This document shows, piece after piece, positions 25,384 through 34,398 of a stretch of 64,000 nt of DNA. This DNA is from Nitratidesulfovibrio sp. SRB-5 (GTDB lineage: Bacteria > Desulfobacterota > Desulfovibrionia > Desulfovibrionales > Desulfovibrionaceae). The stretch is taken from the NCBI RefSeq assembly GCF_019931275.1, contig NZ_JAIOTY010000002.1:186001-250000 (forward strand). Direction: 5' to 3'. The position numbers were made by a program, and so were the translations under genes. The notes under the pieces are model-generated. The model worked only from the letters and a program-made list of their open reading frames with translations, was not told the DNA's origin and searched no databases. The number at the start of each line of letters is the position of its first letter. Position 1 is the stretch's first letter.

Positions 25384-26010
25384 GGACGCCGTGGGGCGAT
25401 TTTTCGAATCTCTCACCCGCGACGCTTTTTTCCGGCCCGCGCCGTGTCCGGTTCGCATCCCGCCCGGATATTCATTGCTTCCGGCGCGCGCTGCTTGTCG
25501 CCTGCGGCGGTGTGTCCGCCTCCTTCCGTTTCGTCCGCCCACCTTCTGTTTTGTCCGACCCCCTTCGGCTTTGCCTGTCTGCCTTCCGCTTCGCCTGTCC
25601 TGCTCCGGCTCCCCATTACTGCGGTGCCGGGCGCATCCCCCCATCCCCTGCGCCCCGCGCGCCGTGCCCCGTGCGCCGTGTCTGGCTTTTTCGCCCCGTT
25701 TGGCCATTTCGTCGCCCCGGCCATAATCATCTCCGCCCCGCCTTCCCTGCTGTCATCGGGCCGCAAGCCTGCTATGCTGGTTCCGTGTCGCGGTCCTGCC
25801 CGGCCCCGCCCGGTCCAGTTCGGTCCTGCCCGGTTCTGTGCGGTTCTGTGCGGTCCTGTTCGGTCGAGTCCGGTCCTGTTCGATTGTTCCGCATCAGACC
25901 GATTGGACCCGATTGGACACGATTCGGCCCGCTTGGACCAGCCCCGCGCCGCTTTGCAACTATCGCCGCCATCCCACAGCCCGGCCCACCGCCGGATGAA
26001 GGAGTTTCGC
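25384..26010 (+). other. Gene-free region with decamer repeats
   Basis: A 627-bp gap. Its first 400 bp are Pro/Ser/Cys-biased low-complexity sequence without a convincing gene. The last 220 bp contain the decamer arrays and the leader of the aldehyde dehydrogenase gene. Confidence 0.6.
25791..25930. repeat. Two decamer tandem repeat arrays
   Basis: From 25791 the sequence advances in register by 10 bp for about nine units of CGGTCCTGTT and variants. From about 25901 it switches to a second decamer, GATTGGACCC, for three to four units. Confidence 0.85.
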
Positions 26011-27693
26011 ATGTCGTCCCAGCCGTCTGCCACAGCCTCTGGTCCCGCCGCCAGCCCTGCCGACGCCCATACCCCCGAAAGTCTGCGCGCCCTTTTCCCC
26101 GTGGCCGGGCAGCCCCTGCCGGAAGCCGCCCACGCCTTCGCGCCCATAGAGCAGCGCACCTGCCTCATCGACGGCAAGCTGGAGGAATGGCCCGGCGAGA
26201 TGCAGCAGGTGTTTTCGCCCATCGGGGAAGTTGACGGTGCGGGCGGCTTCGCTCCGCGCCTGCTGGGCAGCTGTCCCATTCTGGACGAGGCCGCCGCCCT
26301 GCGCGCCGTGGACGCCGCCGACCGCGCCTGGGCCGACGGCATGGGCGCATGGCCCACCATGGGCGTGGCAGAGCGCATCCGCCACGTGGAGGATTTTGCC
26401 CGGCGCATGGCGGCGCGGCGCACCGAGGTGGTGCGCATCATGATGTGGGAAATCTGCAAGTCGTGGCAGGACGCCAGCGGCGAATTCGACCGCACCATGG
26501 AGTACCTGCGCGACACCATCGACGCGCTGAAGGATCTGGACCGCGCCTCGTCGCGCTTTGTCATAGAGAAAGGCATCTACGCGCAGATCCGCCGCGCGCC
26601 GCTGGGGCCGGTGCTGTGCATGGGGCCGTACAACTACCCGCTGAACGAAACCTTCTGCACGCTGATGCCCGCGCTTATCATGGGCAACCCGGTCATCGTG
26701 AAAACGCCGCGCCTGGGGCGGCTGCTGTATTCGCCGCTGATGGAAGCCTTCCGCGACGCCTTTCCCGCCGGGGTGGTCAACATCCTGCACGGCGACCGGC
26801 GCATCGTGAAGCCCATCATGGCGTCGGGGCGCATCAACGTGCTGGCGTTCATCGGGTCCAGCACGGCGGCGGACGCGCTGCGCCTTGCCCATCCGTACCC
26901 GCACCGGCTGCGCTGCGTGCTGGGGCTGGACGCCAAGAACGCGGGCATAGTGCTGGACTGCGCGGACATGGACCTGACCGTGGCCGAGGCGCTGCAAGGC
27001 TCGTTTTCGTTCAACGGGCAGCGCTGCACCGCGCTGAAGATGCTGTTCGTGCATCAGAAGCGGCTGGACGAATTTCTGGCCCGCATGGACGAGGGCATCC
27101 GCAAGCTGCGCATCGGCATGCCGTGGGACGAGGGGGTGCGCATCACGCCGCTGCCGGTGCCCGGCAAGTCCGCCTATCTGGACGACCTGGTGCAGGACGC
27201 CGCCGCGCATGGCGGCAGGGTGGCCAACAGCGGCGGCGGCTCCCACGCCGAAACCCTGTACCACCCCACGGTGGTCTGCCCGGCCACGCCGCAGATGCGC
27301 GTGTACCACGAGGAGCAGTTTGGCCCGGTGATACCCGTCATCCCCTTCACGGACATAGAAACTCCGGTGCGCTACGTGGTTGGGTCGCAGTATGGGCAGC
27401 AGCTGAGCATCTTCGGCAACGACCCGGACGACGTGGCCCGGCTGATCGATCCCATGGTCAACCAGGTGTGCCGGGTGAACATCAACAGCCAGTGCCAGCG
27501 CGGGCCGGACACCTTTCCCTTTACCGGCCGCAAGGATTCTGCCGAGGGCACCCTTTCGGTCAGCGATGCGCTGCGCTGCTTCTCCATCCGCACGCTGGTG
27601 GCGGCCAAGGGCACCGACGCCAACAAGGAAATTCTGACGAGCATCATCCGGGACAGGCGGTCGAACTTCCTGTCGAACGATTTCATTCTGTAG
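26011..27693 (+). CDS. Aldehyde dehydrogenase family protein (GapN-like)
   Basis: A 560-residue protein. It has the ALDH fold with the oxyanion Asn in GPYNYPLNE and the catalytic Cys at residue 339 in NGQRCTALK. Its closest resemblance by recall is to NADP-dependent non-phosphorylating glyceraldehyde-3-phosphate dehydrogenases. The general-base Glu usually found in LELGGK is absent: the segment reads LGLDAKN, with Gly305 at the Glu position. CoA-acylating members of the superfamily also lack this Glu, so the reaction may differ from plain aldehyde oxidation. The ATG has GAAGGAG 7 nt upstream. Residues 1-40 are an extension. Confidence 0.85.
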   Translation: MSSQPSATASGPAASPADAHTPESLRALFPVAGQPLPEAAHAFAPIEQRTCLIDGKLEEWPGEMQQVFSPIGEVDGAGGFAPRLLGSCPILDEAAALRAVDAADRAWADGMGAWPTMGVAERIRHVEDFARRMAARRTEVVRIMMWEICKSWQDASGEFDRTMEYLRDTIDALKDLDRASSRFVIEKGIYAQIRRAPLGPVLCMGPYNYPLNETFCTLMPALIMGNPVIVKTPRLGRLLYSPLMEAFRDAFPAGVVNILHGDRRIVKPIMASGRINVLAFIGSSTAADALRLAHPYPHRLRCVLGLDAKNAGIVLDCADMDLTVAEALQGSFSFNGQRCTALKMLFVHQKRLDEFLARMDEGIRKLRIGMPWDEGVRITPLPVPGKSAYLDDLVQDAAAHGGRVANSGGGSHAETLYHPTVVCPATPQMRVYHEEQFGPVIPVIPFTDIETPVRYVVGSQYGQQLSIFGNDPDDVARLIDPMVNQVCRVNINSQCQRGPDTFPFTGRKDSAEGTLSVSDALRCFSIRTLVAAKGTDANKEILTSIIRDRRSNFLSNDFIL

Positions 27694-28028
27694 CGGGACG
27701 GGCGGTTGCGAGGGGCGAATCCGGGAGAGCGGGGCGCTGCCCCGCACCCCTGTAGCTCTGCTGTCCTCATCCGTAAGGTTCGCGCTGCGCGCTCACCAAC
27801 GGCTGAAGCAAGGGAGCCGCGTGCGTTGTGATCGCCTCCGTAAGGCTCACAAGCTCGTCAAACGGCTGCCGTCCCCTTGACCTCCCTTTTGGGGGGGAGT
27901 GGGTAGCAAATCACAAGGCCCGCCGGATACGGCGGGCCTTGTGGCGTTCTGGAGAAAGGGGAAGCGTGAGGAGGAGAGGCTGCGGAGACACGGCGGATGG
28001 CTCCCCGTCACCCGACATCGAGCCGGAC
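27694..28028. other. Gap with hairpins and a short duplication
   Basis: It contains the perfect hairpin GCGGGGC-GCT-GCCCCGC (27729-27745). It also holds two imperfect direct copies of a 30-40 bp element starting TCCGTAAGG and ending ACGGCTG (about 27769-27805 and 27838-27868). The strong inverted repeat at 27913 is listed separately. Confidence 0.6.
27913..27942. terminator. Strong inverted repeat, probable bidirectional terminator
   Basis: Arms ACAAGGCCCGCC (27913-27924) and GGCGGGCCTTGT (27931-27942) form a perfect 12-bp stem with a six-base loop. It lies between the convergent aldehyde dehydrogenase and antitoxin genes. The T-tracts are poor. Confidence 0.55.
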
Positions 28029-28271
28029 CTACTGGCCCTTGCGTTCCTGCAAGTGCCTGCCGAGCACCGTCTTGATGAGCGCCTGCCGCGATACGCCAAG
28101 GGTCTTGGCTTCCTTGTCCAGCGCGTTCACCATCCACAGCGGAAAGTCCACGTTGACAGTCTTCTTCTCGCGGTTGGGATGGCGGATGGCGCTGGTATCC
28201 AGAAAGGCGGTGATGTCCTCGCCTTCGTCAAAGCGGCGGTCGAATTCTTCAGTGGAAATTTGCTTGGACAT
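28029..28271 (-). CDS. BrnA-like antitoxin without adjacent toxin
   Basis: An 80-residue protein. The N-terminus MSKQISTEEFDRRFDEGEDI is the toxin-binding type of BrnA/CopG antitoxins. The C-terminal half (VNVDFPLWMVNALDKEAKTLGVSRQALIKTVL) is a ribbon-helix-helix DNA-binding domain. BrnA neutralises the RNase BrnT and represses the operon. AGGAGG precedes the ATG, so the longer upstream frame is rejected. BrnT normally lies directly upstream in the same operon. Here the upstream 220 bp hold no BrnT-like frame, only a promoter and the edge of the AT-rich island. The toxin may have been lost or be encoded elsewhere. Confidence 0.85.
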   Translation of the reverse strand: MSKQISTEEFDRRFDEGEDITAFLDTSAIRHPNREKKTVNVDFPLWMVNALDKEAKTLGVSRQALIKTVLGRHLQERKGQ

Positions 28272-28301
28272 ACAGTGCCACCTCCTCTTTTCTCGCCCGT
28301 T

Positions 28302-28334
28302 TTGCACTGTAGGCAAGTTGGCGAGGTGTGTCAG
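28302..28334 (-). promoter_or_regulatory. Promoter and operator of the antitoxin gene
   Basis: On the minus strand CTGACA (28329-28334) and TACAGT (28306-28311) are 17 bp apart, a sigma70-like match. The inverted repeat TTGC-N7-GCAA (28302-28316) overlaps the -10 element and could be the autoregulatory site. Confidence 0.55.
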
Positions 28335-28395
28335 CCGAATAGCCGATTCCTCATTCAGGCCGCCAAGTGTGTGTGAATTGTTAGTACGAGTATAA

Positions 28396-28423
28396 ATGTT
28401 AACATTGGCATTTACGGCATTTA
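28396..28423 (+). promoter_or_regulatory. Candidate control elements of the island operon
   Basis: The palindrome ATGTTAACAT (28396-28405) is followed by a perfect direct repeat of GGCATTTA (28407-28414 and 28416-28423), 70-95 bp before the first island gene. No confident -35/-10 pair was found. Confidence 0.4.
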
Positions 28424-28490
28424 AAATTGATGCTATTTTCAATAAAAAAAGCGATAATTGTCATTTTTATAACATGGGCAAGGGGATGTT

Positions 28491-29507
28491 GTGATTGACA
28501 TTAGTTCGGCAAGAGTTGGAAGGTTTGTCGTTCATCACGTAGGTAACAAGCTAAGAGAAGAAGGCTACATATTATCTTCGAAGGAATCTGCTGCACAGGC
28601 TGACCTTTGTGAGCTTCTCCTTAAGCACTACCTGCTTCCGCTGTCGCAACAAACAGATTTTTTTGAATTTTTTCATGAATCCGATCTGGGCCTTAATGAA
28701 TTGTATAGGTATTCTTCGAATGTTTTTAAAGATAATGAGTCATTTTTTGAGCAGTCTTGTAATATTGCGAGGCATTTATACAGTGTATCGACGCACCCAA
28801 ACGTTTCAGAAGGTGAGTTAATAATTATTTTGTTTTTGGGTATTCGACTCGGTGAGTTGGCAATGGATGGATTGGCGATTCTAAAGATGGAGAACAAGGA
28901 TAGCTATCTTGATGTCGTTGATGAATTTGGAACAATTCAGTTGATGACAAAGTACGGAATTTCATTGAATAAAATACAGAAAGGGTGCCTTGTGTTTTCA
29001 AGTGGCAATAGCGTAGTTGCTATTGATAATTTGAGTAAAAAAACTAAATACTGGAATGATTCCTTTCTTAAAATAAGGCCACAGAGAACGATGGATGCTT
29101 GTGCAAAAGCTGGTGGCACAATTTTAAAGTCTATCGCAGCTAAGGTGCAGGATGGCTCAGAACGGATATCGTTGAATAAAAAAATAAAGGATGAAATCTC
29201 ATCTAACCACTCATTGTCGTTGGGTGAACTTATCGATATTTCCAAAGGTTTTGTAAGTGAGCGTGCTATTTCTGGGATTGTTGAGGGTGTGCGCGGAGGT
29301 GTGGGGTTTGATTTGTCTGATGGGCTACAGATTGATTCAGGGGCACTCCTCCCATATGTGCGGAAGATGGCTAGTAAAATATGCATAGCAAAGGGTGTTA
29401 ATATTGTTGTTTCAGATCATCTGGTGAGTATTTCAGATGTTTCAATTGAGCCGCGTGTAGGCGGTTTTCGCGCAATTATTGATATGAAGGTTGAGGAGGG
29501 TGAATAA
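28491..29507 (+). CDS. Nucleoid-associated protein, NA37/YejK family (island gene 1)
   Basis: A 338-residue protein. ISSARVGRFVVHHVGNKLREEGY followed by LSSKE, the helical region RLGELAMDGLAILKMENKD, and KKTKYWNDSFLKI resemble the 37-kDa nucleoid-associated family (YejK, PF04245). Those proteins bind DNA, but their job is poorly known. The GTG start has AGGGG 6 nt upstream. Base use is strikingly AT-rich compared with the flanks and codons are A/T-ending, which indicates transfer. It heads a three-gene operon, and its stop overlaps the next start (TAATG). The family call is by recall of motifs; a role in defence is inferred from context. Confidence 0.75.
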   Translation: MIDISSARVGRFVVHHVGNKLREEGYILSSKESAAQADLCELLLKHYLLPLSQQTDFFEFFHESDLGLNELYRYSSNVFKDNESFFEQSCNIARHLYSVSTHPNVSEGELIIILFLGIRLGELAMDGLAILKMENKDSYLDVVDEFGTIQLMTKYGISLNKIQKGCLVFSSGNSVVAIDNLSKKTKYWNDSFLKIRPQRTMDACAKAGGTILKSIAAKVQDGSERISLNKKIKDEISSNHSLSLGELIDISKGFVSERAISGIVEGVRGGVGFDLSDGLQIDSGALLPYVRKMASKICIAKGVNIVVSDHLVSISDVSIEPRVGGFRAIIDMKVEEGE

Positions 29508-30445
29508 TGGGAGGGGAGTTATCAAAAAAATCTGGCGAGATTGGCGAAGATATTGCGCAAAATTTGCTTGCTCAGTTGGGGTGGAAGTTAACGTTGGATA
29601 ATTTTTCGGTGGCATGCAACAATGATTTGCATATAAATAAAAATGGTAATTCTAAGGTGAGCCATGGTGAAGATAGGGTTTATATTTATCATAACCCGTT
29701 TCATGATGACTCTAGTGAAATAGTTCATATATCGGTTAAGCATACTCTGAATAAATACCCGTCAGGGGCAACGCTGAAGACGCATCTAAAAGAATACATA
29801 AGCGAGCTTCAGGAGACGATCGATTGCGCTAGGTATAGTCCAGAGCTTAAAACTGCGATTTCATCACACGTGCTTCGGAAAAACAAGAAACATTCTGGTC
29901 TATTAGTTTGGGTAAGTAGCCATCCGGATGAGGTGAATAGAAATATTATTCGTGACTTAGTGAATGTGCGTTTAGATTGTGAGTGGAAGTACCCGGTGTA
30001 CTTAATTGACAATGCCAGGGCCCACTTTCTTGCTAACGCGGTTAGTGGGGCGAAAGAATGCTTTAAAGCTGAAGAGGTGGAGTTTTTTTATCCACAGATG
30101 GGCACAGCTATTACTGCAACTGAGCCAAGATCTGGATTTTTTTTACCACTTGAGCTTGTCGCGTCTGATATCCTCCCTGTATTATATAAAGATAGTGAGC
30201 GTGTTGAACTTGTGTTTTATGCAAATCAACATTTCTCATTGGATGCGTATACGAAGCTGCTAACGTATGCTATGCGTTTCTCATATGGCCTTGTATCAAG
30301 AATAAGAATAGGAATGCCTGACTTTAATCCTGCATATCATGGAAATGACGTAAAGTCTGCGAGAATGAAATTTTCAGATAGGCGTGAGGAAATTGTCCCG
30401 TTTTGTTTTAATAAAACCATTCTTAATCCTGCTAGTGAAGATTGA
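29507..30445 (+). CDS. PD-(D/E)xK nuclease-like protein (island gene 2)
   Basis: A 312-residue protein. The N-terminus GELSKKSGEIGEDIAQNLLAQLGW looks like the first helix of restriction-endonuclease-fold proteins, with conserved Glu. Then comes DRVYIYHNPFHDD and a strand ending VHISVKHT, where a xVK lysine is expected. Together these could form an E...D...xVK metal site. It somewhat recalls GapS4a, the nuclease-like half of the GAPS4 anti-phage pair; I cannot confirm that. Translation is coupled to gene 1 (TAATG, with GGAGG before it). It is AT-rich like its neighbours. No helicase or methyltransferase partner is present. Confidence 0.6.
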   Translation: MGGELSKKSGEIGEDIAQNLLAQLGWKLTLDNFSVACNNDLHINKNGNSKVSHGEDRVYIYHNPFHDDSSEIVHISVKHTLNKYPSGATLKTHLKEYISELQETIDCARYSPELKTAISSHVLRKNKKHSGLLVWVSSHPDEVNRNIIRDLVNVRLDCEWKYPVYLIDNARAHFLANAVSGAKECFKAEEVEFFYPQMGTAITATEPRSGFFLPLELVASDILPVLYKDSERVELVFYANQHFSLDAYTKLLTYAMRFSYGLVSRIRIGMPDFNPAYHGNDVKSARMKFSDRREEIVPFCFNKTILNPASED

Positions 30446-30446
30446 T

Positions 30447-31592
30447 ATGAAAAATCAATTCGATTTGAATTCAAATATTCTTTCCGGGGCTGAGCTTAGA
30501 GTCCTTCTTAATAGTGATCACATTTCATATGGTGAGGTACAAACAACGCTAAAAGAGAAGGGGGTTTTTGTCGGAAGTATCGACAAGTCAGTAACAGTGC
30601 CGTTGCTGTCTGCTATGCTTTTAACACCAGATAATTTTTCTAGGCTTATCGAAGCAAGTGTCGTGCGTGAGTCTAAGCTTAAAACAAAGATATCTACACT
30701 TCAGTTAATAAATAAAGACGTGGACTGGCGTACTCCATTGCGGGGTGATATTTTTGATGACGATGTGATTCTTATTGAAGAATCTGAAAATTTGAATTTT
30801 GTAGAGTCTCCGGATGTAGTGATTGAAGGTAAAAGTGTAGTGAAAATACAATATGTAGTTGTAAAAAAAGATTATAGCAAAGACTGGTTGGAGAGAGAGA
30901 TAAAATTTTGCGGGGACGTTTGTGTAAGGCAAGTCGGTGATTCGCTTGCTTTGGAGTTCTTGTCACACCATACTGCAAAAGAAACGGAAAGTATTAATCG
31001 TAAGATAATTTCATTGGTTTCAAAAATATTGAATACTTCTGGGGCAACGAGTTCGGTGACACCCCAAGGGATAAATTTTGATTCTTTTGATAACATAGAG
31101 CGGATTCGTTTCTTTAAAAGGTTGACATCAGGCATGCCTCCGCGTTTAAAAGTTGGGAACGTGGATAATATGGATATTGTGCTTGATGAAGCAGCGCCGG
31201 AACTTCCTTCGGATCCTCAAATTGCTTGGATGAAAAATGCGGTTAAGGGGTTAAAAATTGATGGGGAAAGGCTCAATAATATTTTTCTGATTGCAGATGA
31301 GATGTATTACCAGTACTACCACGTGCGAAAAATAGATGTAGAGTTTGACTTTAGTTTGGGCGCGAATTCAGGGTCATGTGGCGTTTGTTTTTCTTTTAGT
31401 GCTCCAGCACGCACAGAGGGTGCATATAAAAAGGGAGAATTAGCGTATTCATTTGTTAAAATTGTATATGACAATGCAGTAAACACAGAGTCAAAGAAGA
31501 ATATTAATAGCGATCTTGAAATAATTATTAAAGAACTAATCAATAAGCACTATAAGAGTATGATCGATGAGAGGGGTGTGCCCGCAGAGTAA
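30447..31592 (+). CDS. Unrecognised protein (island gene 3)
   Basis: A 381-residue soluble protein with no membrane helix or signal peptide. I do not recognise a domain with confidence. The N-terminus (GAELRVLLNSDHISYGEVQTTLKEKGVFVG, in substance) looks like a small helical module, and SAMLLTPDNFSRLIEA follows. The C-terminal part has an alternating strand pattern (KIDVEFDFSLGANS, GVCFSFSAPA). A GapS4b-type partner of gene 2 is one possibility. The start at 30447 is chosen because it lies one base after the gene 2 stop; a longer in-frame version would overlap gene 2. Strongly AT-rich. Confidence 0.65.
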   Translation: MKNQFDLNSNILSGAELRVLLNSDHISYGEVQTTLKEKGVFVGSIDKSVTVPLLSAMLLTPDNFSRLIEASVVRESKLKTKISTLQLINKDVDWRTPLRGDIFDDDVILIEESENLNFVESPDVVIEGKSVVKIQYVVVKKDYSKDWLEREIKFCGDVCVRQVGDSLALEFLSHHTAKETESINRKIISLVSKILNTSGATSSVTPQGINFDSFDNIERIRFFKRLTSGMPPRLKVGNVDNMDIVLDEAAPELPSDPQIAWMKNAVKGLKIDGERLNNIFLIADEMYYQYYHVRKIDVEFDFSLGANSGSCGVCFSFSAPARTEGAYKKGELAYSFVKIVYDNAVNTESKKNINSDLEIIIKELINKHYKSMIDERGVPAE

Positions 31593-31689
31593 TAAGAGTA
31601 TTACATTGGGCTTTCGAGCCAAGTAGCCTCATGTGGCGGGTGCTGTCGCACGGTTCTTGGATCTTACTTTAGGGGAGACTCGCGGGTCA

Positions 31690-34398
31690 TTACATCCCCA
31701 TTTCTTCCCCCTTCCCATCCTCCAACGGCAAGTCCAGCTGCCAGATATCCTCGTCGTAGTCCTTGCTGACGATGAAGCCGACTGACCGCGCCAGTTCGGC
31801 CATGGACTTGTTGTCGCCAAGGGCAGCGCCCACAATGCGCTTGGTGCCGCGCGCCTTGCAGTAACGGATGATCTTCTGCATCAGCAGCTTGCCCAGGCCC
31901 TGCCGCTTCAGGTCGGATCGAACGGCCACGGCGAATTCCGCCTCGCTGTTGTCGGTGCTGACCATGGCCCGCACCACGCCCAGCGTGCGCACCACCCCGT
32001 CGTTGTCCGGCCCCTTGGCGATGAAGGCCATTTCGCGGTCGTAGTCGATCTGGGTCAGCTTCACCATTTCGGCGCGGGGCAGCTTGGCCACGTTGCCGAA
32101 GAAGCGGAACCGCTTGTCCTCCGCCGATAGGCTCTCCACGAATTCCCAGTGCTCCGGCTCGTCTTCCGGGCGGATGGGCAAGAGATCCACGTGCCGCCCG
32201 TCGCGCAGGGCCACGCATTCCTCCAGCTCGCGCGGGTAGGGGCGGATGGCCAGCTGGTCCGTGCCGGTGGTGGTGGACCAGGCAATGCGCATGTGCGCAT
32301 CCAGCGCCACCACGCCGTCGGCATCCACGAACAGCGGGTCTATCTCCAGCTCGAATATCTCGGGAATGTCGATGATCAGCTGCGACACCTTGCACAGCAG
32401 CAGGCGCACGGCGTCCAGATTCACGTGGGCCTTGTGGCCGCTGCCGCGCAGCAGGCGGTACACCCGCGTGCGCGATACCAGTTCCTGCGCAAGGCCCATG
32501 TTCAGCGGCGGCAGGGCGGTCTGGCGGTCGGCCAGCACCTCTGCCATGGAACCACCCTGCCCGAAGTGGATGATGGGGCCGAACACCGGGTCGGTGGCGG
32601 TTTCCACGGCCAGTTCGTGCGCCCCGGCCAACCGGCACATGCGCTGCACGGCATAGCCTTCCATGCGCGCGCCGGGCACCTGGTCGCACACGTTGTTGGC
32701 GGTGGACAGGGCGGCGTCCATCACCTCTTCGTCGCTGGCAAGGTTAAGGGCAACGCCCCCAGCCAGCGACGTGCGCGGCACGTCGGGCGATTCCACCTTC
32801 AGCGCCACGGGGTAGCCTATCTCCGCCGCGGCGGCCACGGCCTCGCGCGGGGTCTTCACGTGGCGCGTCTCGGCCACGGGTATGCCATAGGCGGTGAGCA
32901 CGGCGTGGGCCTCTGCCGGGGTCAGCAGCATGCGCTTGGCCTCCAGCGCGTCGTTCACCACCATGCGCGCCGCCGTCACGTCGGGGTTGAAGGCCTCCGG
33001 CAGCGAGGGCGGCGTTTCCATCAGGGTGTCCTGGTTGCGCCGGTACTCCACCATGTTCAGGAAGGCCCGCACCGCGTTGTCCGGGGTGAAGTGGCTGGGC
33101 ACCCCGGCGGCGGCGAACTTGCGGCGCGCCCCGGCGGCGTCGTCTATGCCCAGCCAGCTGGTCAGCACCGGCTTGCGGCTGCGGCGTGCCACTTCGATGA
33201 CCGCGCCCGCCACGTCGTCGCTGGGCATGGAAAAGGTGGGCACGTGCATCACCAGCACGGCGTCAACGCCCCGGTCGTCCAGAAGTATCTGCAACGCTTT
33301 CGCGTACATGGCCCCGTCGGCGGAACTGCGCACGATCAGCGGGTTCCAGTACGACCAGTCGCGCCCCAGTTCGTTGTCCAGCGCCTGGCAGGTCTCGTCG
33401 GAAAGTTCGGCCAGCTTGCCGCGCCCCTGCAACAGGGCGTCGGTGGCCAGAAAGCCGGGGCTGCCGCCGTTGGTCAGGATGGCCAGCCGGTCGCCCTTCA
33501 GCGGTTTGGCAAGGGCCAGCGTTTCCACCGTGTCGAACATGGCGTCGATGTCGGCCACCCGCAGCATGCCCGCCCGGCGGAAGGCGGCGTCGTACACCTC
33601 GTCCGCGCCCAGCAGCATGCCGGAATGCGCGGCAGCCGCAGCCGCAGCCGCCTCCGACCGCCCCGCCTTGATCACCAGCACCGGCTTGTTGCGGGCCAGC
33701 GCGCGCGCGGCGGACATGAAGCGCCGGGCGCTGTCGATGGTCTCTATGTACAGCAGCACGGCGCGGGTGTTCACGTCGCCGTTCAGGTAGTCCAGCACGT
33801 CGTTGAAATGCACGTCGTACCGGTCGCCCAGGGCGATGAAGTGCGAAAAGCCGATGCCCTTGGACGTGGCCCAGTCCAGAACGGACGTGAACAGCGAATC
33901 GGACTGCGAAAGAAAGGCCACCTTGCCGGGCAGCGCCTCTCGCGGGGCTAGGCTGGCGTTCACCCCCACCGACGGCGTGATGAACCCCAGGCAGTTGGGC
34001 CCCAGCACCCGCACGCCCCAGCGCTGCGCGGCCTGCAACAGGGCGGCCTTCTGCACTTCGCGGCGTTCTCGGTCAAACCGGAAGAACCCCCGGCTCATGA
34101 TTACGGCGGCGCGGGTGCCGCGCTTGCCCAGGTCTTCGATGTAGCCGGGAATGGTTTCGGGCGGGGAACAGATGATGGCAAGGTCCGGCGTCAGGGGCAG
34201 GGTGTCGATGGCGGTGTGGCCGGGCATGCCCGCCACGGCCTCTCCCGTTTCGTTCACCGGCAGCACCGGCCCCAGAAAGGTGCCGGACATCAGGTTTTCC
34301 ATGATGACGCAGCCCGGCTCGCCCGGCGTGGACGTGGCCCCGATGACGGCCACGGAATTGGGTTTGAACATCTGTTCCAGGGACGATTGCGTGGCCAC
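31690..34398 (-). CDS. Acyl-CoA synthetase (NDP-forming type) fused to GNAT acetyltransferase, Pat-like
   Basis: A 902-residue protein. A CoA-binding domain (FKPNSVAVIGATSTPGEPG) comes first, then the ligase-CoA domains (GPNCLGFITPSVGVNAS, AFLSQSDSLF, TNGGSPGFLATDALL). An ATP-grasp domain follows at about 470-700, and a C-terminal GNAT domain at about 730-890 (RSDLKRQGLGKLLMQKIIRYCKARG). This is the layout of Pat/PatZ protein lysine acetyltransferases, which silence acetyl-CoA synthetase. His258 in AHSGM seems to align with the phospho-His loop of active ADP-forming synthetases. The GTG start has GGAAGGGGG upstream. It is divergent from acs, its likely target. Confidence 0.88.
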   Translation of the reverse strand: MATQSSLEQMFKPNSVAVIGATSTPGEPGCVIMENLMSGTFLGPVLPVNETGEAVAGMPGHTAIDTLPLTPDLAIICSPPETIPGYIEDLGKRGTRAAVIMSRGFFRFDRERREVQKAALLQAAQRWGVRVLGPNCLGFITPSVGVNASLAPREALPGKVAFLSQSDSLFTSVLDWATSKGIGFSHFIALGDRYDVHFNDVLDYLNGDVNTRAVLLYIETIDSARRFMSAARALARNKPVLVIKAGRSEAAAAAAAAHSGMLLGADEVYDAAFRRAGMLRVADIDAMFDTVETLALAKPLKGDRLAILTNGGSPGFLATDALLQGRGKLAELSDETCQALDNELGRDWSYWNPLIVRSSADGAMYAKALQILLDDRGVDAVLVMHVPTFSMPSDDVAGAVIEVARRSRKPVLTSWLGIDDAAGARRKFAAAGVPSHFTPDNAVRAFLNMVEYRRNQDTLMETPPSLPEAFNPDVTAARMVVNDALEAKRMLLTPAEAHAVLTAYGIPVAETRHVKTPREAVAAAAEIGYPVALKVESPDVPRTSLAGGVALNLASDEEVMDAALSTANNVCDQVPGARMEGYAVQRMCRLAGAHELAVETATDPVFGPIIHFGQGGSMAEVLADRQTALPPLNMGLAQELVSRTRVYRLLRGSGHKAHVNLDAVRLLLCKVSQLIIDIPEIFELEIDPLFVDADGVVALDAHMRIAWSTTTGTDQLAIRPYPRELEECVALRDGRHVDLLPIRPEDEPEHWEFVESLSAEDKRFRFFGNVAKLPRAEMVKLTQIDYDREMAFIAKGPDNDGVVRTLGVVRAMVSTDNSEAEFAVAVRSDLKRQGLGKLLMQKIIRYCKARGTKRIVGAALGDNKSMAELARSVGFIVSKDYDEDIWQLDLPLEDGKGEEMGM

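Follow-up and report, generated by a model that had tools for sequence, protein, structure and literature searches.

The locus described here raises the question why a gene of the nucleoid-associated NA37/YejK type opens an AT-rich operon of putative defence genes, and whether its product takes part in the defence. The window (the whole analysed stretch of 64,000 nucleotides from Nitratidesulfovibrio sp. SRB-5, contig NZ_JAIOTY010000002.1, positions 186,001 to 250,000) contains at 28491-31592 three closely spaced + strand genes in the order NA37-GapS4a-GapS4b. With a probability of roughly 0.55, these constitute a horizontally acquired anti-phage operon, namely a three-gene subtype of GAPS4, in which a GapS4ab nuclease core is joined by NA37 as a dedicated subunit or cofactor. 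GAPS4 and NA37 are each already known, and the NA37-GapS4a-GapS4b unit appears to be a new combination of them; among the matches listed, no paper on GapS4a/b or on NA37 with GAPS4 was found in the literature searched, outside which most subscription papers, including the original GAPS4 report, are situated. The locus matters as a case of a nucleoid-type protein wired into a defence operon, one part of whose family works without it, and this natural comparison with and without NA37 makes the role of NA37 directly testable.

Identity and predicted folds of the three gene products

The initial annotation of this DNA had described three coupled genes, with a TAATG overlap followed by a 1-base gap, as an abrupt AT-rich block in GC-rich DNA. 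The coordinates of the open reading frames (ORFs) bear this out, the overlap being situated at the NA37/GapS4a junction and the single base between GapS4a and GapS4b, and the guanine-plus-cytosine (GC) content amounts to 0.391 for 28491-31592 vs. 0.678 in the window outside 28390-31592. Each of the three genes has a GC content at third codon positions (GC3) of 0.35-0.36, and stretches of 1.5 kilobases (kb) with less than 52% GC are confined to the surroundings of the operon (starts 27501 to 30901; window scan, step 100).

The guess that genes 2 and 3 might correspond to the two GAPS4 genes proved right: the product of gene 2 is GapS4a (NCBIfam NF047933, 301.6 bits, curated cut-off 270) and that of gene 3 is GapS4b (NF047934, 331.3 bits, curated cut-off 300), and both genes are adjacent in one operon, as membership in GAPS4 requires. 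With this identification, the alternative of a wholly new system is moot. The GapS4b profiles of the three-gene and the two-gene form match each other with an expectation value (E) of 4.7e-52 over 345 columns (profile-profile comparison). A sequence search of the PDB with the three operon proteins and their profiles yielded nothing better than E 0.2, and PADLOC of 2023 gave no match for any of the three proteins up to E 1.

Concerning GapS4a, the pattern of the type E...D...xVK noticed earlier corresponds to E14, D56 and S76-x-K78, and all four named residues are invariant in an alignment of 11 GapS4a proteins. As a comparison of the GapS4a profile with six Mrr_cat domains gave no signal (probability 0.6%), AlphaFold was used for the fold. 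The resulting model (predicted local distance difference test, pLDDT, 85.8 from 11 sequences) exhibits in appearance two endonuclease-like domains. In the VIA comparison, its N-terminal half matches 2okf (the fdxN element excision controlling factor; Z 8.5), EndoMS 5gke (7.0), HamA 8vx9_A (6.9), SduA (6.4) and FokI (6.3), whereas residues ~168-305 match RNA polymerase subunit E chains (Z up to 8.8), EcoT38I, Cap4, BamHI and Can2; the RPB5 polymerase chains and the excision factor XisH have endonuclease-like folds. The N-terminal domain is likely, though not proven, to possess a PD-(D/E)XK-like nuclease fold, and motif and modelled fold together suggest that GapS4a may act as a nuclease. The second domain, endonuclease-like or RPB5-like in the model, is probably structural in role.

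The resemblance of gene 1 to NA37/YejK, likewise noted in the initial annotation, is well founded: its product is a divergent NA37/YejK-family protein, which matches the Pfam family PF04245 at residues 13-196 (48.8 bits, cut-off 24.6, E 8.5e-13), and the same family matches 6 of 8 operon NA37 proteins at E 0.01. For the AlphaFold model of NA37 (mean pLDDT 83.9, 10 sequences), the sole PDB match at E <0.001 is E. coli YejK 9be2 (Foldseek E 1.2e-6, template modelling score, TM-score, 0.40), which also takes rank 1 in VIA (Z 15.5, root-mean-square deviation 7.7, 248 residues aligned). The paper on the YejK structure reportedly speaks in its title of a novel DNA binding clamp. The profile of the operon NA37 proteins matches standalone NA37 of Bacillota and phages over the full length (E 1.7e-48), and the NA37 tree sets the operon proteins well apart from YejK proper, grouping them with standalone NA37 proteins from Listeria, Alicyclobacillus and two phage contigs. 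In a sample of 178 genomes from the phylum of the window, the operon gene was the sole NA37 match of the family search, a lower bound, and no YejK match was obtained, which makes a phylum other than Pseudomonadota probable; owing to this single NA37 match, the operon NA37 does not look like host housekeeping.

Standalone NA37 genes with 25% identity to the operon NA37 are also found on two viral contigs (L069 6001-7053, L070 5998-6999), where they might serve in counter-defence or as nucleoid proteins of the phage. Two other NA37 genes overlap a partner gene without Pfam match (L042 80-1862, - strand; L043 43-2512, + strand; partners of 273 and 483 amino acids) and are possible further NA37 modules.

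NA37 beside GapS4a in other genomes

Conservation of the three-gene order elsewhere had been set beforehand as a test of the proposal, and this order is kept in other genomes. A search seeded with the window GapS4a returned 7 loci with 42-51% identity (Yersinia, Atopomonas, Komagataeibacter, three Methylobacter, Dechloromonas); in 7/7, NA37 is situated directly upstream, and GapS4b, which in L007 is truncated where the contig ends, follows GapS4a likewise in 7/7. The named hosts belong to the Gammaproteobacteria (Atopomonas, Methylobacter), the Betaproteobacteria (Dechloromonas) and the Alphaproteobacteria (Komagataeibacter). The family searches covered 59, 369, 345, 151, 300, 204, 170 and 178 genomes, partly overlapping, as well as plasmids, phages, E. 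coli genomes and viral contigs, the sampling being centred on taxa in which the genes were already known. Altogether, 23 distinct GapS4a loci were obtained, of which 12 (window, L003-L009, G753, G908, G880, G1408) carry NA37 directly upstream of GapS4a on the same strand, which supports the earlier suggestion that NA37 is an added component of GAPS4. The distance between NA37 and GapS4a ranges from -4 to +2 base pairs (bp) in 11 of these loci and amounts to +9 bp in the 12th (G1408).

Left out of the 23 were L051 (G697; 100% identical to L010), L033 and L034 (GapS4a identical to L045), E. coli H4 and H5 (which score as H3), further short copies of counted loci, and L002, L053, L058 and L065, which are below the family cut-off and in which no NA37 was found. 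G1408 was kept despite its 236 bits, below the cut-off, its GapS4a being broken: the gene is interrupted beside a transposase-like ORF (L064 38-1210 and 1337-2101), judged by eye and presumably of the IS21 type, and the remainder of the operon lies on another contig.

The two-gene GapS4a of two plasmids is only ~26-28% identical to the window GapS4a. Of 5,426 E. coli genomes, 4 contain the two-gene form, and NA37 is absent from those E. coli copies that were examined; two queries found no GapS4a in phage records. In an unrooted GapS4a tree of 22 loci (L074, found later, is counted among the 23 and stands outside this tree), the presence or absence of NA37 amounts to 1 change, a value as low as which was reached in 0/500 shuffles. 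Eleven NA37 loci form one GapS4a clade (support 100/100), and the divergent G1408 lies between the two forms; as the tree is unrooted, gain and loss of NA37 are not distinguishable. NA37 upstream of GapS4a is no chance neighbour. Identities between loci are correlated for NA37 and GapS4a (8 loci, r 0.70, Mantel p 0.0004) as well as for NA37 and GapS4b (7 loci, r 0.71, p 0.0001), i.e., the three proteins co-diverge. In one host family, to which Methylobacter and G880 belong, NA37 is under purifying selection, the ratio of nonsynonymous to synonymous divergence (dN/dS) being 0.14-0.28 in 6/6 pairs formed by G880 and three operons of Methylobacter.

These results bear on the notion that NA37 might merely be a stable passenger, retained since the operon moves as a unit. 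Such a passenger would fit the 11 of 23 GapS4 loci, and equally the E. coli copies examined, that manage without NA37; purifying selection on NA37 and its retention between main-clade operons down to 32% NA37 identity speak against it, and we regard this explanation as very improbable. That NA37 is kept with GapS4ab across distant bacteria suggests that it is a working part of the immune system.

Two observations concern the history of individual operons. In the Methylobacter-type operons L006, L007, L009 and L056, NA37 is 97-99% identical, whereas GapS4a is 83-86% identical in 5/6 pairs; the synonymous divergence (dS) is 0.03-0.10 in NA37 and 0.38-0.69 in GapS4a, with one close pair at 0.06. 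Diversifying selection on GapS4a was rejected as a cause, its dN/dS being 0.11-0.20 and the jump synonymous; since the jump is largely in synonymous change, gene exchange is indicated, pointing to GapS4ab alleles exchanged beside a constant NA37. The NA37 of G1408 clusters with the Bacillota and phage proteins at a support of only 80/76, and just 1% of 200 bootstrap trees unite all 12 operon NA37s in one clade; yet a single clade is not rejected (approximately unbiased test, p-AU 0.074), such that G1408 may represent either an independent, second recruitment of NA37 or a divergent branch of a single one.

Possible roles of NA37

In the subunit or cofactor reading, GapS4a and GapS4b would form the conserved nuclease core, with a PD-(D/E)XK-like catalytic site in GapS4a, and NA37 would most likely bind DNA and tune where or when GapS4ab cuts. 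Binding of DNA by NA37 would be expected by analogy to the YejK family; the direction of its effect we infer to be, for example, loading of the nuclease on infecting DNA, or restraint of the nuclease on nucleoid DNA. This reading is favoured by a 2026 report, according to which a transcription unit validated as protecting E. coli against phages contains a YejK nucleoid-associated domain (PMC13092281).

Several observations weigh against it. Concerning distribution, no NA37 was found upstream in 11/23 GapS4a loci (L010, L011, L035, L044, L045, L046, L047, L048, L050, L052, L074) by tblastn with eleven NA37 and YejK queries (E 1e-3) in 748 bases for L044 (contig end), 1,500 for L047, L048, L050 and L052, and 5-12 kb in the six remaining loci; hence, not every GAPS4 needs NA37. 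A different ORF is situated directly upstream in L022, which bears on L044 with its contig ending at 748 bases. Moreover, 7/12 NA37 loci stem from the search seeded with the window GapS4a, which favours close kin; among the loci found first by profile, four contain NA37 (G753, G908, G880, G1408) and five show none (G117, G466, G644, G677, G689), and on account of these four the pairing is not merely a seeding effect. The split joining G1408 to the other NA37 loci has a support of 56/25 and appears in 54% of 200 bootstrap trees, and the NA37 family search is not fully sensitive (5/7 known operon NA37s found, 2/7 missed).

Concerning the proteins themselves, residues 1-198 of NA37 are not basic (20 lysines and arginines, 25 aspartates and glutamates), and unspecific DNA binding is thus not obvious from charge. 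The purified NA37 homologue NdpA2 reportedly did not shift the promoter DNA tested (PMC8565334). The NA37 profile matches two YejK proteins alone only weakly (probability 4.7%), although this shallow two-protein profile also failed with the standalone NA37 of Bacillota and phages (0.8%). In GapS4a, the motif around the catalytic lysine is S-x-K in place of E-x-K, all VIA matches have Z <9, and the sole Foldseek match at E <0.001 is Argonaute 7r8k (E 7.4e-4, TM-score 0.25). The nuclease fold anticipated for gene 2 in the initial annotation has accordingly retained moderate support from the AlphaFold model and VIA, whereas the low Z values and the Argonaute match keep it short of confirmation.

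As a possible, if rather unlikely, alternative, NA37 might be a regulator of the operon and no part of the immune machinery, either relieving the silencing of this AT-rich foreign DNA by host nucleoid proteins or repressing the nuclease genes until they are needed. The first gene of an operon is a common position for a regulator, and NA37 holds this position in an operon that is AT-rich amid GC-rich DNA. In addition, NdpA2, the NA37-family protein of the Pseudomonas aeruginosa element PAPI-1, is reported to tune a promoter by altering MvaT binding and to act with TprA (PMC8565334). A role confined to regulation is at odds with the occurrence of the same NA37 type with GapS4ab in such unlike hosts as Yersinia, Komagataeibacter, Methylobacter and Dechloromonas, with the two-gene form of GAPS4, which lacks NA37, and with Pfam, which reveals no second, DNA-reading domain in NA37.

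Doubtful, too, is a function of NA37 as a second effector that is itself no nuclease and, similar to KwaB, would cover the infecting DNA and prevent its replication or late transcription, while GapS4ab cuts. KwaB entries occupy ranks 2, 3 and 8 in the VIA list of the NA37 model (9mtn_B Z 6.0, 9mrx_D Z 5.8, 9nyu_A Z 5.0), with 124-133 residues aligned (NA37 model 1-195 on KwaB 7-195 or 11-195), and KwaB of Kiwa, according to a review, binds DNA without cutting and halts replication and late transcription (PMC12904381). However, Z values of 5-6 are in the range of common arrangements, the unrelated MHC-like 4g59_B scoring Z 5.5 in the same list; PADLOC gives no KwaB hit, and the operon lacks a KwaA-like membrane partner (Pfam, NCBIfam). 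Simple coating of DNA is further disfavoured by the charge of NA37 and by the failure of NdpA2 alone to shift the promoter.

Returning to NA37 as part of the GAPS4 machinery, a broader version of this reading is speculative, and we consider it unlikely: NA37-type DNA clamps might be recurrent, interchangeable sensing modules of immunity directed at DNA, the NA37 of this subtype distinguishing self DNA (for example, nucleoid-coated and supercoiled) from incoming DNA for GapS4ab and having an ancestral DNA-gripping fold in common with KwaB and the E. coli YejK-domain unit.

Chromosomal site and comparison with known systems

The operon is situated in a hypervariable site of the genus (window 27694-31703), which is flanked by an aldehyde dehydrogenase gene on one side and a CoA-ligase/GNAT gene on the other. 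Homology to congeners ends on the left between ~27705 and 28299 and restarts on the right at 31704-31718. The gene right of the operon was matched in 7 congeners, and the site was examined in 6 (L036-L041), with both flanks seen in G006, G001, G005 and G004 and the right flank alone in G007 and G003. The cargo differs among them, being AT-rich or consisting of clustered regularly interspaced short palindromic repeats (CRISPR): type II cas1/cas2 with repeats in G007 (similar ORFs, by eye, in G003), a pair of a methylase and a GHKL ATPase with similarity to PD-Lambda-5 in G005, a P-loop ATPase resembling the defence candidate PDC-M28C in G004, and genes without Pfam or PADLOC match in G006 and G001. 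As the cargo is defence-like in 4/6 congeners (unknown in 2/6), the location supports a defence role of the operon, and an antiphage function is suggested by the family name together with this site.

The initial annotation had stated that no integrase, transposase or direct repeat marks the edges. Inspection by eye of the ORFs listed for 26000-34000, one part of the window, showed neither an integrase nor a transposase, and no direct or inverted shared words of 10 to 20 bases were found between 27690-28420 and 31560-31760. Elsewhere, integrase genes adjoin the NA37 operon in L003 (also beside a transfer-messenger RNA gene) and L005, and a Y1 transposase gene is situated upstream of it in L006. 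Among the loci without NA37, for 6/11 of which the genomic setting was examined, two are on plasmids, three in prophage-like DNA (L045, L035, L074), and L046 is beside an integrase gene.

The features around the operon are compiled in Table 1. The promoter-like match belongs to a set near chance expectation (12 found in the region vs. 9.3 expected by consensus scan). A near-identical brnA is found at the same site in G006, inside the L036 ORF 1788-2156 (- strand), beside other cargo, and BrnTA was rejected as part of the operon, the cargo there being different. The antitoxin gene, at the edge of the hypervariable site, seems to be an orphan: inspection by eye of the three reverse frames directly upstream of brnA, a stretch for which no family search was made, revealed no BrnT. 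Apart from the operon, low-complexity short GC-rich repeats appear in the translations of window ~25500-25950, in a kilobase with an AT skew of -0.30 and a GC skew of -0.14.

Table 1. Positions in the window of the operon genes and of neighbouring features
Feature	Position	Strand	Remarks
Promoter-like match TTAACA-17-TAAAAT	28399-28427	+	Consensus scan only, 10/12 positions
NA37/YejK-family gene	28491-29507	+	GTG start, 338 amino acids, operon gene 1 (ORF analysis, PF04245)
GapS4a gene	29507-30445	+	312 amino acids, operon gene 2; NF047933
GapS4b gene	30447-31592	+	ATG start, 381 amino acids, operon gene 3; NF047934
BrnA-family antitoxin gene, flanking, outside operon	28029-28271	-	NF047399 111.2 bits, cut-off 60

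Concerning known systems, the comparison of gene 2 with Hachiman HamA, proposed in the initial annotation, holds only at the level of a common predicted fold: the PD-(D/E)XK-like domain predicted for GapS4a resembles 8vx9_A over 143 residues at the Z value given above. It does not extend to the system, since the operon contains no HamB helicase, genes 1 and 3 are NA37 and GapS4b, and PADLOC gives no match; Hachiman was therefore rejected as the home family. Kiwa was likewise rejected, the modelled fold of NA37 residues 1-195 resembling KwaB weakly (Z 5-6), whereas KwaA is absent from the operon and no Kwa match exists in PADLOC.

The DefensePredictor unit (PMC13092281) is similar in that a YejK-family domain occurs in an E. 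coli transcription unit protective against phages, the partner genes being unnamed in the accessible text. It is probably another system than NA37-GAPS4, since the DNA of the Yersinia three-gene operon has no match in the 5,426 E. coli genomes (blastn). The NA37/YejK family (PF04245) is shared at the level of the Pfam match and the predicted YejK fold; the window NA37, however, is far from YejK proper on the tree and is bound to GapS4ab in an operon.

The organization is most similar to that of GAPS4, reportedly a two-gene system from Vibrio islands: both window proteins are above the curated cut-offs, and gene order and tight spacing are alike, whereas the window operon possesses in addition a dedicated NA37 gene upstream.

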